From positions 17,690 to 81,689 of the forward strand of contig JACDZI010000002.1 in assembly GCA_013426785.1 (NCBI GenBank): 64,000 nucleotides of DNA, given 5' to 3'. The notes below the pieces were generated by a model. The model had not been told where the DNA came from. It ran no database searches and saw only the letters and a program-made list of their open reading frames with translations. The stretch comes from Rhodocyclaceae bacterium. Its GTDB lineage: Bacteria; Pseudomonadota; Gammaproteobacteria; Burkholderiales; Rhodocyclaceae. A program made the translations under genes and the position numbers. Of this stretch, positions 53,889-58,734 are shown piece by piece. The stretch's first letter is position 1. Every line of letters begins with the position of its first letter.

Positions 53889-54305
53889 GGAGCGAACCTG
53901 GGAAGCAATGCCGCATTGTACCGGCAGTGGCCAGACCCTATTTTTGTCAGGGCTTTACCTGCGCGCGAACACGCTGTACTGTGAAAACTGCCAGATAGTC
54001 ATTTTCTGGACCTCGGCAGAAACGAACGCCAACACTGGAAAAACTGTCTGGGAACTACCGTACTCGACCCAGTGGACGTTGAACAAAATCAAAAGCTGAC
54101 GTTCAAAAGCGACGAAATGAAAAGACCGTCTTCTTGGTTGCCGAGTTTGGCCCCTTTGATGAAATTCAACCCATGCCACTTTTATTTGTCGCACCGCAGC
54201 AGCACGGCGGAGTATCTGGATAAAAAAACCGATTAGCTCTACGGCAGCCGACACCATCACCGTGCGCGGCAAGGCCATGGCTTTTTGTGCCTTGAAAAGG
54301 ATGGG

Positions 54306-55244
54306 CTAGAGCTTTGGTTTTGCCGCTTTCAACGCGGCTGTAGTCCATTTTTTTACTCTTTGCCTGAGCGGCTTTGAGAGGTCAATACAGCAATCGATTA
54401 ACCGGCAGCGATCAAAGAGGAGTCCGGCGCTCACCGAATATCGGCCCCAGCGTGAACGATTTACCGCCTCGGACACAAAAAAAGCCCGCGCCGGATTCAG
54501 CAAAAATGGCCCGTCAACCCAAGATTTGAGGAAAGCATCGACCTGTAGCTGGCAAAGCTGATCGGTCCATGCTGTGCCCGTTTTGCACTGCCCAAAGATG
54601 ATGATCTGGTTTGGGGTGCGGTCAGCAAACGGAATCCACCCCACGACATCTAATTTGTCGTCATTGGCATGGATCGGGGCATCGGGGTCGATGGCCCGGT
54701 AACCCCTCGCTTCCTTTAGGGCATCACATAGCGACCTCACCTTGCCCGGAAAATCCGCGCTTCCGGCCGCCGTGCCAAAGACCATGGATTGGGCACGATC
54801 CGGCCCTAGATAACCCCGCAGGACTTCGGCTGAAATTTCCTCCAACAAGGTGGTACCGTCGATCCCCACCTGCACCTTGGCGGATTGCATGTTGAGGCGA
54901 GTACTTAGCAGCAGGTAGCCGTATAGAAGCGTTTGCATGCTGCCGTTATCGGCATAGCGAACGACATTTCCTCGGGCATCTAGCGAGAACGGATAGCCAG
55001 CCCGACAGGCTTTTTGCCGGCGCTCGATTTCGGCCATGACCTCTTCCAGCGCTGTTACATTCTCGTCATCATCATCATTGCAACCTTCGTTGTTGGCGTT
55101 TTCCCCTTCACGCCCCAGAAACGCCACAATCTCGCGCGCCGAAACCGAATGCTGTGCGCTGGCCCAAGCCAGAAGCTCGGTAAAATCCGCCAGCTCATGA
55201 ATATCGGCCTTTGCCGACGGCTTGCCCGGCAACTTAAAGGTCAC
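54306..55244 (-). CDS. Protein of unknown function with candidate PD-(D/E/Q)xK nuclease motif
   Basis: NDDKLDVVGWIPFADRTPNQIIIFGQCKTGTAW fits D...QxK; 5 nt from the next gene. Confidence 0.6.
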   Translation of the reverse strand: MTFKLPGKPSAKADIHELADFTELLAWASAQHSVSAREIVAFLGREGENANNEGCNDDDDENVTALEEVMAEIERRQKACRAGYPFSLDARGNVVRYADNGSMQTLLYGYLLLSTRLNMQSAKVQVGIDGTTLLEEISAEVLRGYLGPDRAQSMVFGTAAGSADFPGKVRSLCDALKEARGYRAIDPDAPIHANDDKLDVVGWIPFADRTPNQIIIFGQCKTGTAWTDQLCQLQVDAFLKSWVDGPFLLNPARAFFVSEAVNRSRWGRYSVSAGLLFDRCRLIDCCIDLSKPLRQRVKKWTTAALKAAKPKL

Positions 55245-55248
55245 AAGG

Positions 55249-56364
55249 CTACTCCGCTAGCCGATTTTTCTTGCTACGTCCAGCGAGCTCAGATCGTTTG
55301 CGTTCCAGTTCGGCGTAGATATCGTCCGCCATGTTGGCAATCGTCCCCGCCACCTTGAGCAAGGCTTCTGAATTATCGTATCCCGCAGTCAAATAGGCAC
55401 GTGCAGTAGTAAGTTCGCGCTTAGCGGCCAGCAAGGCGGATTCAAAAACCTCTGCCGGGTTACGGCTGATTTCCAGCGCCTTGTCGAGGGGCATCCCGGC
55501 CCTCAACGCTTCGACCGACTCCCGATTGGAGACGACGGTATTGAGGTTGCGCAGATCGGGGTTCTGCGAGACAACCACCGGCATCTGTTCCGATTTTTTG
55601 CTGCCGTATAACCAGACGCACAACTCCCCCAGCGCCTTGACCTTGTTTTTGGGAACTGGATTGACCGATTCGTCTTCCTTGGCAGCAACGCCCAGAAAAT
55701 CGGCAATGCCGGGATAATCCAGCCCGGTATAAAGGTGTGAAAACGAGAAGTGCTTGTTGTAGCGGTCTTCGCGGTCGAAGACCTTGGCTTGCTCTGCCTG
55801 TTCAAGCACCATCAAGCCACGAAACAGCCGTTGCACGGTGCGATGGCGATCACCAATCTGACTTGCGATATCTTCCAGCGCCACACCGTACTTGCGATGA
55901 ACCTCGGCAATGTACATGGCCTTGGCGTAGCTGCCCCATTTTGCCGGACCATTGACGTGCTTGAAACCCAAGTAGCGCCAGGACTCTTCACGGGTCGAGA
56001 TGATGGCCGGCAAGCTGGCTAGAGACTTGCGAATTGCCATCGAAACTTTCGGTACAGGCCAACCCTTTTCTTTGGCCAGTGTCGGGTGCAAGAGAATCTT
56101 GACCGCCGCCAGCCGCCGATTTCCTTCGATGACCACGTTTTTGCCGTTTTCAATAGCAACGATCAAGGCCTCGTGATGAAAGAAACCGCTCGCCGCGATT
56201 GACTGGATAAGCTCCAGTACATCCATCGCGTCCCACAAAATATCGAGAATCGTGTCGTCATCGAGCCCGTCGTCAATGCCGTATTCGGCCAAGCGCGGAT
56301 TGTGCGGATCAAAATGAAGCGAATCTGTTTCTAGCGAGATGATTTCTCTTTTGAGTTGACTCAC
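55249..56364 (-). CDS. ParB/Srx N-terminal-like domain protein
   Basis: NVVIEGNRRLAAVKILL; HTH-like LEDIASQIGDRHRTVQRLFRGL. Confidence 0.8.
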   Translation of the reverse strand: MSQLKREIISLETDSLHFDPHNPRLAEYGIDDGLDDDTILDILWDAMDVLELIQSIAASGFFHHEALIVAIENGKNVVIEGNRRLAAVKILLHPTLAKEKGWPVPKVSMAIRKSLASLPAIISTREESWRYLGFKHVNGPAKWGSYAKAMYIAEVHRKYGVALEDIASQIGDRHRTVQRLFRGLMVLEQAEQAKVFDREDRYNKHFSFSHLYTGLDYPGIADFLGVAAKEDESVNPVPKNKVKALGELCVWLYGSKKSEQMPVVVSQNPDLRNLNTVVSNRESVEALRAGMPLDKALEISRNPAEVFESALLAAKRELTTARAYLTAGYDNSEALLKVAGTIANMADDIYAELERKRSELAGRSKKNRLAE

Positions 56365-57260
56365 GGTGTCGCTTCCTGTGAAAAGTAGGCCGGATGCGCG
56401 ATGCGCGCGGCTTTTCTGGCCATCGGCAAATACAGATGATGCGGCGCGATCAGTAATTCCTGGGCAGCCCGCTTGTTTTGCAACGAATAACGAATCGGCA
56501 GATGGTCAATCTGCTGCCCGGCGTAGATTTGATGAATCAAGGGCGCGTCATCATAGGAGACCAGCCAAGGCAAAATGTGCTGTTTTGCCAGATAACTGGC
56601 CAGTTCGGCGTGATCGCCAGGGCCATAAGCATTGAGATACAGCTTTTGACCTTTGATGACATAGGGTGGATCGGCATAAACAAACGCCTTTGCCCGACCG
56701 CGGCCGTAGGGCAGGCATTGCTGCAAAAATTCAATCGCGTCCAACCCGGTGACCAGGATCCGATCCCGCAATGCGCCAAGCGCGCGCACGCGGGCCGATA
56801 ATTCAACCCGGTTGAAACGGACATCGAGTCGCCACTTTCCGTCCTGTTGGTAGCCCCCTATAGGGCCCGCCCCTTTGAGCACACCGGAACGGTTGCAGCG
56901 GTTCATGTAAAACGCCGAAAACCCCAAAGCAAAACGGTCATCGGCACTCCCTGCCGCGCATATGGCCTGCTGCTTGCGCCACTCCTCAATATTGAGCGGT
57001 ACTTGGGCGATCTGTTCCAGAAAGCGCTCATTCTCGTTGAGCATGGAATGCCAAAGGGTAAACACGCGCGGATCGGCATCGTTGATGTGGATACGCCCTA
57101 CGGCACCCTGACATAACAGGTTCAACGCGGCCCCGGCTCCGCCGGCATAGGGCTCGAAATAATCGCAACCAGTGAGGCCGTTCAACTCCAGCAGATCGGC
57201 CAGATAAGCTGACAAACCACCCTTGCCACCCGGGTAACGTAGCGGACTGGCTGGTTTCAT
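56361..57260 (-). CDS. D12-class N6-adenine DNA methyltransferase (Dam-like)
   Basis: LRYPGGKGG, DYFEPYAGGAGAALN, FVYADPPYV; 4-nt overlap with ParB-like gene. Confidence 0.93.
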   Translation of the reverse strand: MKPASPLRYPGGKGGLSAYLADLLELNGLTGCDYFEPYAGGAGAALNLLCQGAVGRIHINDADPRVFTLWHSMLNENERFLEQIAQVPLNIEEWRKQQAICAAGSADDRFALGFSAFYMNRCNRSGVLKGAGPIGGYQQDGKWRLDVRFNRVELSARVRALGALRDRILVTGLDAIEFLQQCLPYGRGRAKAFVYADPPYVIKGQKLYLNAYGPGDHAELASYLAKQHILPWLVSYDDAPLIHQIYAGQQIDHLPIRYSLQNKRAAQELLIAPHHLYLPMARKAARIAHPAYFSQEATP

Positions 57261-57593
57261 GAAATCTTCGGCAGGATAATCACCCCGCTACTTTAACCGA
57301 TCATCCGCCAATTCGTCATTCCGCCTGCTTTGCCCTTTTTATTTTGCGCCCTCGCTTAGGCTATTGCTCGCCATAATGGTTATTGTTCAGATAGTGAAGT
57401 GGCATGAATAAAATTGGTAAGGCTCGAGTTTCCCTCCTCCCGACCCTCTTGATTTCATGAACAGATAAGGCTTGCGGCGGTAGTTCGAGGGACATAGAGT
57501 TTCTTCTGCCTACTACTTTTGCCTAGTAATCATCGGAAACTCAATGGCCGCTTTGGAGGCGCTTCTGCCAACGGCCGCTACTGGCCGATAACC

Positions 57594-57619
57594 GCCGTCC
57601 CGCCAGCGCCGACTTTTTT
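57594..57619 (+). repeat. Dispersed 24-nt element, intergenic
   Basis: gccgtcccgccagcgccgactttttt. Confidence 0.88.
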
Positions 57620-57680
57620 GAGTGGGGGATAAGGATGAACATGGCAAGTGTTGCTTCGGGACTGGCCCGTTCAACGACCG

Positions 57681-58077
57681 TCAGGCAGCGATAAATCCCG
57701 GCAACTTGGCCGCCTTCCCATCGAAGGTTGCGGTTGCCCGGCATCCAAGCCGTCGGTTTTTGGCACCGATCAGACAGTCGGCAAAATCAGCCGCCGCATC
57801 TTTCCATGTGAACAGCGCTTCCTCGATAGCTGGCTCGTCCTCGAATTGGACATCGGGTGTATCGAGCAAGCCGGAGATGGTTTCAATCATCTGATTCTTC
57901 GACAGACCGTAGCGGCTGCGCAGCACCCATTCGGTTTCCAGGCGCCCACTGACTGATGAAAACGCGACGTCCTGCCGCGACTTCGCGCTTGAGCAGTTTG
58001 CGTGCCTTCTCGAACTGGGCCTCGTCGTCCCTCGCCAGAAACCGGACGAGAACATTGGTATCGACCCCCAGCATCAC
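57681..58077 (-). pseudogene. PIN-domain toxin (VapC-like), frameshifted
   Basis: MLGVDTNVLVRFLARDDEAQFEKARKLLKREVAAGRRVFIS then frame change near 57955 to LETEWVLRSRYGLSKNQMIETISGLLDTPDVQFEDE...DFADCLIG. Confidence 0.75.
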
Positions 58078-58292
58078 CGCGACAACTGCTCGACCGGAAC
58101 GGGCTTGCGCCCCGCCTTGTTCAACATACCCGCCAGTGCGGCGATACTCTTGCTCTTCACCCGCATGACCACGGTGGCATCCGGCATCAGCGTGAACGTC
58201 ATCCGGTCCCCGGCCTTCATGGAGAGGCTATCCCTGATTTCCTTGGGAATGGTTGTTTGACCCTTGCTGGTCAGTGTGGCTTCGCTGGACAT
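58074..58292 (-). CDS. AbrB/SpoVT-type antitoxin
   Basis: MSSEATLTSKGQTTIPKEIRDSLSMKAGDRMTF. Confidence 0.9.
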   Translation of the reverse strand: MSSEATLTSKGQTTIPKEIRDSLSMKAGDRMTFTLMPDATVVMRVKSKSIAALAGMLNKAGRKPVPVEQLSR

Positions 58293-58395
58293 TTCAATCT
58301 CCCTAAATCCTTACGATCTGGACTTTAGTAAGGCAATGAATTGCTGGCAACATATTCGCGATTTGCTATCCGGGCGACTGCTATTCAGGGCTTTT

Positions 58396-58734
58396 CTAGC
58401 GCGAGAACAGTTTGAGGCCGAGGATGCCGGCGACGATCAGACTGATGCAGACCAGCCGGACCACCTCGCGTGATTCGTCGAACAGGACTATGCCCAGCAG
58501 TGCCGTGCCAACCGCGCCGATGCCGGCCCACACCGCATAGGCGGTACTGACCGGTAGGGTCTTCAACGACCAACCGAGCAACACGACCGACAATGCCATC
58601 GCGGCGAGCGTCCAAGCGGTTGGCCAGAACCGGCTGAATCCCTCGGTGTACTTGAGGCCGATGGCCCAGGCCACTTCGCACAGCCCGGCGACCAGCAAGA
58701 CCGCCCAGGCAGAACCTGCGGAGAGAGGCATCAT
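58396..58734 (-). CDS. SMR-family efflux protein (SugE/Gdx-like)
   Basis: [21 protein letters not shown]; four TM helices; start uncertain (58734 or 58761). Confidence 0.9.

Follow-up and report, generated by a model that had tools for sequence, protein, structure and literature searches.

Three adjoining genes in a Rhodocyclaceae bacterium (GenBank assembly GCA_013426785.1, contig JACDZI010000002.1; a 3.24 Mb genome in 241 contigs) raise the question of whether they form an undescribed defence or modification module, as proposed by an initial annotation of the DNA. The 64,000-nucleotide stretch of this contig that was analysed is referred to here as the window, and all coordinates are given on it. 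The genes lie on the minus strand with intact open reading frames and encode a D12-class (Dam-like) adenine-N6 DNA methyltransferase (56361-57260; 299 aa, ATG start), a ParB-like protein (55249-56364; 371 aa, GTG start) and a candidate PD-(D/E)xK-like nuclease (54306-55244; 312 aa, GTG start). The list of open reading frames agrees with the initial annotation on the common strand and on a 4-nt overlap between the methylase and ParB-like genes, while the spacing before the nuclease gene, given there as 5 nt, is 4 nt. The motifs it had pointed out are all present, namely RYPGGKG and DPPY in the methylase, EGNRRLAAVKIL in the ParB-like protein and DDKLDVVGW...IIIFGQCKTG in the nuclease. The upstream region on the same strand (57261-57540), likely the leader/promoter region of the operon, is AT-richer as described (46.4% GC versus 62.6% for the window), but its promoter-like sites are no commoner than in shuffled sequence.

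The methylase assignment is confirmed by matches to PF02086 (4e-8, Pfam profiles) and PDB 7m6b (1.7e-13), with both motifs of D12 adenine-N6 methyltransferases intact (the RYPGGKG-type SAM motif at residues 8-14 and DPPY at residues 197-200). Marking of the host's own DNA is established chemistry for D12 enzymes. In addition, the PADLOC model PD-Lambda-5_B matches residues 3-285 of the protein at 2.5e-99.

The ParB-like protein contains a predicted N-terminal ParB/Srx NTP-binding domain, a helix-turn-helix domain at residues ~145-225 and a helical C-terminus. Its match to TIGR00180 is weak, and the proposed ParB/Srx fold is borne out by an AlphaFold2 model (pLDDT 91.6) for which the best Foldseek matches are KorB/ParB/Noc crystal structures (E 1e-6, ~250 residues). 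The top 29 matches are all ParB/Noc/KorB/Spo0J proteins, several of them in nucleotide-bound (CTP) structures. Across 48 ParB-like sequences, EGNRRL (80-85) and D19..NPR are invariant or nearly so, with the Arg patch represented by R83 in 47 sequences and R84 in all 48. According to a survey of the ParB fold, which can accommodate CTP, ATP or GTP, nucleotide binding is lost when the conserved Arg of this patch is mutated (PMC12704722). The protein resembles the CTP-dependent clamps ParB, Noc and KorB in its N-domain, helix-turn-helix fold and conserved RR patch, but differs from them in having no ParA, in its helical C-terminus and in a G..H..G...W stretch that occupies the place of the canonical ParB box III. 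As the CTP-hydrolysis motif of ParB was not recognisable in the G..H..G...W region, nucleotide cycling may differ from that of canonical ParB. No ParA ATPase was found among the neighbouring genes, which sets the locus apart from ParABS systems.

The third protein is composed of an N-terminal helical, winged-helix-like part and a C-terminal nuclease core with D195, D199, Q219 and K221. A PDB sequence search with it yielded no match, no Mrr or SRA domain was recognised through Pfam, and weak Pfam similarities (Sulfotransfer_1, T2SSF and others) fell below cut-offs and were rejected as chance matches. Its AlphaFold2 model (pLDDT 89.5, pTM 0.89) matched MspJI first in the PDB (Foldseek prob 1.00, E 2.6e-3), with the PD-(D/E)xK enzymes BsaWI, Can2, N.BspD6I and MspI among the other top matches, and it matched "restriction endonuclease" entries in a viral library, so that restriction enzymes lead both lists; this support is modest, with E of ~1e-3 to 1e-2 and low TM-scores (0.3). 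In a profile comparison (hhalign), the core scored 35.6 against Mrr_cat nucleases (probability 79%) and none of 60 column shuffles exceeded 17.0, with a mild bias in that the Mrr rows had been pre-filtered for the D..(E/Q)xK motif. Aligned over its full length with entire Mrr proteins, the nuclease matched poorly (probability 9%). Model and profile thus place the protein in the PD-(D/E)xK superfamily by fold, with acidic, Gln and Lys positions present and catalysis predicted.

In order to determine how widely the genes occur together, the ParB-like protein was used as bait, because the nuclease is too divergent for plain tblastn. Searches with the nuclease itself gave nothing at 1e-5 in phages and plasmids by tblastn, no relative in a search for related loci with alignment A1, and three close genome relatives found directly. 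Relatives of the ParB-like protein were detected in phages, plasmids, genomes and 80 viral contigs. These 80 viral loci were gathered with the ParB-like protein alone, and all open reading frames in them were then profile-searched; many are near-copies, and a ParB tree was built on 78 distinct sequences. In 77 of the 80 loci, the ParB-like gene has the nuclease gene as its same-strand neighbour; of the remaining three, L047 and L070 stop at the contig edge, and in L059 the position is occupied by a diverged gene of 353 aa. Whether a methylase accompanies the pair could be judged for 76 of these 77, the contig of L050 ending too early, and every one of the 76 has it. The window order, with the methylase first and on the same strand, is found again in Pseudomonas yangonensis (L007), Zoogloea (L008) and three viral contigs (L018-L020). 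The co-occurrence suggested by the initial annotation is therefore conserved: the three-gene set, found again in dozens of contigs, is far above chance, and the triad is a real and widespread module. Separately, a human-gut phage scaffold (L004 3983-8822) carries two diverged ParB-nuclease pairs that face each other, with no adjoining D12 or C5 methylase recognised.

The methylases beside the pair belong to three mutually unrelated classes, with 43 C5 enzymes, 29 D12 enzymes, three N6_N4_Mtase enzymes (PF01555) and, in L089, a C5 enzyme after an interruption. On the ParB tree, the C5 and D12 sets are split by one supported branch and the N6_N4 methylases arise three separate times within the D12 side, amounting to at least four changes of class. 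ParB and nuclease identities are correlated at r = 0.97, while median identity within the C5 group is 71% for the methylase, 39% for ParB and 32% for the nuclease, and the sets of Wphi and 12474III share 97.8%, 34% and 25%, respectively. This correlation, together with the class changes and the unequal identities, indicates that ParB and nuclease are inherited together and that the methylase is swapped separately. The constant ParB partner argues against a simple two-enzyme Type II restriction-modification layout.

Comparison of 67 non-redundant nuclease sequences refines the active site. No variation was seen at D20, E23, R76, P85, F86, D199, Q219 and R279, and D195 is kept in 66 of the 67. 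The QxK lysine, Lys221, occurs in only eight; all 59 others have a lysine at 229, which seven of the eight lack, and one protein (L020) has both. The D...Q core is invariant and the lysine has moved between positions 221 and 229, a pattern that a shift of the putative catalytic lysine would leave. Hence, of the D...QxK nuclease that had been proposed, the PD-(D/E)xK-like fold stands, with its matches to MspJI and Mrr, but QxK does not hold as a signature of the family. The window family shares a DGG(V/I)D...QxK-type core and fold with Mrr/MspJI nucleases, and differs from them in the displaced lysine of most members and in its ParB and methylase partners. Within this one family, the relocation of a probable catalytic lysine can be followed clearly. 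The protein at the nuclease position in L059 (7068-8129) keeps the D..VD stretch, lacks the invariant Gln and is possibly a degenerate or altered effector.

The triad came into this genome as part of an insert and is horizontally acquired. The insert (53972-58384, ~4.4 kb) lies between an HlyD-type gene and an SMR gene and holds a broken toxin-antitoxin pair in addition to the triad. Its arrival is indicated by three features taken together: the HlyD-type and SMR genes are at most ~80 bp apart or overlapping in six same-genus genomes (loci L112/L129, L114/L127, L115/L138, L116/L139, L117/L132 and L119/L141), the inserted region (~53.95-58.4 kb) has 54.6% GC versus 64-66% in neighbouring genes, and it is bounded by an imperfect 25-nt direct repeat (21/25 identical) with a left copy at 53947-53971 and a right copy at 58385-58409 over the 3' end of the SMR gene. 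Within the insert, neither an integrase nor a transposase gene was recognised. Distribution in the genus is patchy, with a close nuclease homologue in one of 19 genomes, the window's own, and a distant C5-type set in one other (G016). Upstream of the triad, the same insert contains a gene for an AbrB/PrlF-type antitoxin and, after it, a PIN-domain gene disrupted by a frameshift (57681-58292, minus strand).

E. coli P2-type phages, including Wphi, also carry the module. The orf98-orf96-mth set of Wphi and those of E. coli P2 prophages contain distant ParB and nuclease homologues in the same order as in the window, but have a C5 methylase on the opposite strand and the nuclease lysine at the later position. 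About 2% of complete E. coli genomes (103 of 5426) contain the Wphi set. The P2 copies lie next to the portal gene, between the portal and replication genes, a position published as a P2 defence hotspot (PMC9519451). Contrary to the initial suggestion, the module is thus not wholly undescribed, although the ParB and nuclease genes of Wphi/P2 are annotated only as hypothetical proteins. The best match of the Wphi C5 methylase (L002 2328-3266, minus strand) is DruM2, the methylase model for Druantia, at 1e-110.

The initial annotation could assign the triad to no named system; PADLOC models reveal a close named relative, though not an identical one. PD-lambda-5 is a two-gene system that experimentally blocks phages; Vassallo et al. 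(2022, PMC9519451), who discovered it, interpret it as RM+Abi in compacted form. The cloning host lacked mrr (PMC9519451), which would fit adenine methylation in vivo. PD-lambda-5 shares with the window its methylase subfamily, a homologous ParB-like N-terminal part and carriage on prophages. The PD-Lambda-5_A models match only the N-terminal part of the ParB-like protein, and the ParB half of PD-lambda-5_A aligns with that protein by hhalign at 99.9% (E 2.4e-32, ~180-270 residues), while its C-terminal part has no detectable homology to the nuclease (probability 0.03%). PD-lambda-5_A is one protein of ~500 aa with an unrelated C-terminal part, whereas the window has a separate PD-(D/E)xK-like effector gene and no full-length counterpart of PD-Lambda-5_A; the methylase of window relatives, unlike that of PD-lambda-5, may also be C5 or N6_N4. 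The triad is probably a relative of this known virus-defence system that has received little study, standing beside PD-lambda-5 as a variant with three genes.

The PADLOC candidate PDC-M38 likewise contains the ParB-like domain (PDC-M38A match 3.2e-18), but in PDC-M38A it is fused to an AbiEii/OLD-like AAA (AAA_21) ATPase; Pfam detected no such domain in the proteins of the window, and one is present in L105. As the same sensor half is common to the window triad, PD-lambda-5_A and PDC-M38A, one ParB part serves three different effectors, and PD-lambda-5 gains a frame in which a common ParB-plus-methylase half is combined with exchangeable effectors. Three loci (L105-L107) encode ~725-aa proteins with this ParB-like part and the AbiEii/OLD-like AAA ATPase, and have no adjoining nuclease of the window family. 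Dnd, BREX, DISARM and Druantia were rejected as identities of the triad, since similarity was confined to the methylase. A search of open-licence papers found none describing the triad and no phage assay of any triad.

With moderate confidence, we read the locus as a horizontally acquired, restriction-like anti-phage module in which the methylase provides the self mark, the ParB-like protein is a sensor or clamp and the D...Q...K nuclease is the effector. In this mechanism, the methylase would mark the host's own DNA, and the ParB-like protein, as an NTP-binding clamp that has a helix-turn-helix of its own, would most likely load where that mark is absent, by analogy solely with restriction-modification. 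Once nucleotide-bound, it would close on the DNA, slide along it and recruit or activate the Mrr/MspJI-type PD-(D/E)xK nuclease, which would then cut the foreign DNA through its predicted D...Q...K active site. A defence role is favoured because the ParB half and methylase subfamily tie the triad to PD-lambda-5 and the P2 copies sit at a defence hotspot, and also because of the conserved ParB-nuclease pairing, the invariant residues, the restriction-enzyme matches and the patchy distribution. More tentatively, the module may belong to a class of restriction system that has yet to be characterised, with a ParB-type NTP clamp, loaded at unmarked DNA, replacing the specificity and translocation subunits of classical systems and licensing an Mrr/MspJI-like nuclease, the pair being matchable to methylases of three unrelated chemistries. 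Such a triad would connect the ParB clamp fold with methylation-guarded DNA cutting.

The main rival to this restriction-like reading is a module of the RM+Abi kind in which the methylase is guarded, such that its disturbance by a phage, or loss of the module, would lead the ParB-like protein and nuclease to cut unprotected DNA of their own cell and kill it, either stopping the phage or enforcing prophage retention. The published interpretation of PD-lambda-5, which has the methylase and ParB half in common with the window, points in this direction (PMC9519451), as does the presence of the module in prophages and an insert, where addiction pays. The effector half of PD-lambda-5 is, however, not detectably homologous to the nuclease, so an Abi outcome need not transfer, and we consider this account unlikely, though to be taken seriously. 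MspJI and Mrr, the nearest fold and profile matches of the nuclease, are both modification-dependent, which would suit a type IV-like attack by ParB and nuclease on foreign-modified DNA, with another role for the methylase. Such an arrangement appears improbable, as a methylase of one of three chemistries accompanies the pair in every resolvable viral locus (76/76), and a cutter of modified DNA beside a modifying enzyme would endanger the host unless the marks differ.

A role in prophage biology without defence, such as partition, gene regulation or escape from restriction through methylation of phage DNA, is given a similarly low probability. Phages commonly carry ParB-like proteins, P2-like phages hold many copies of the module, and in a PNAS survey, fusions of the ParB fold with a methylase are suggested to have anti-defence or phage-host functions (PMC12704722). 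The module is nevertheless also found outside recognised prophages, in the window insert, Pseudomonas, Zoogloea and plasmids, and the missing ParA partner, the defence-hotspot position of the P2 copies and the invariant nuclease residues all weigh against such a role.

Finally, through the restriction-like reading, "hypothetical" genes of well-known P2 phages such as Wphi become a testable defence module. In one E. coli genome (NZ_CP173544.1, 4050371-4054612), the Wphi-type triad holds an IS5-family element.
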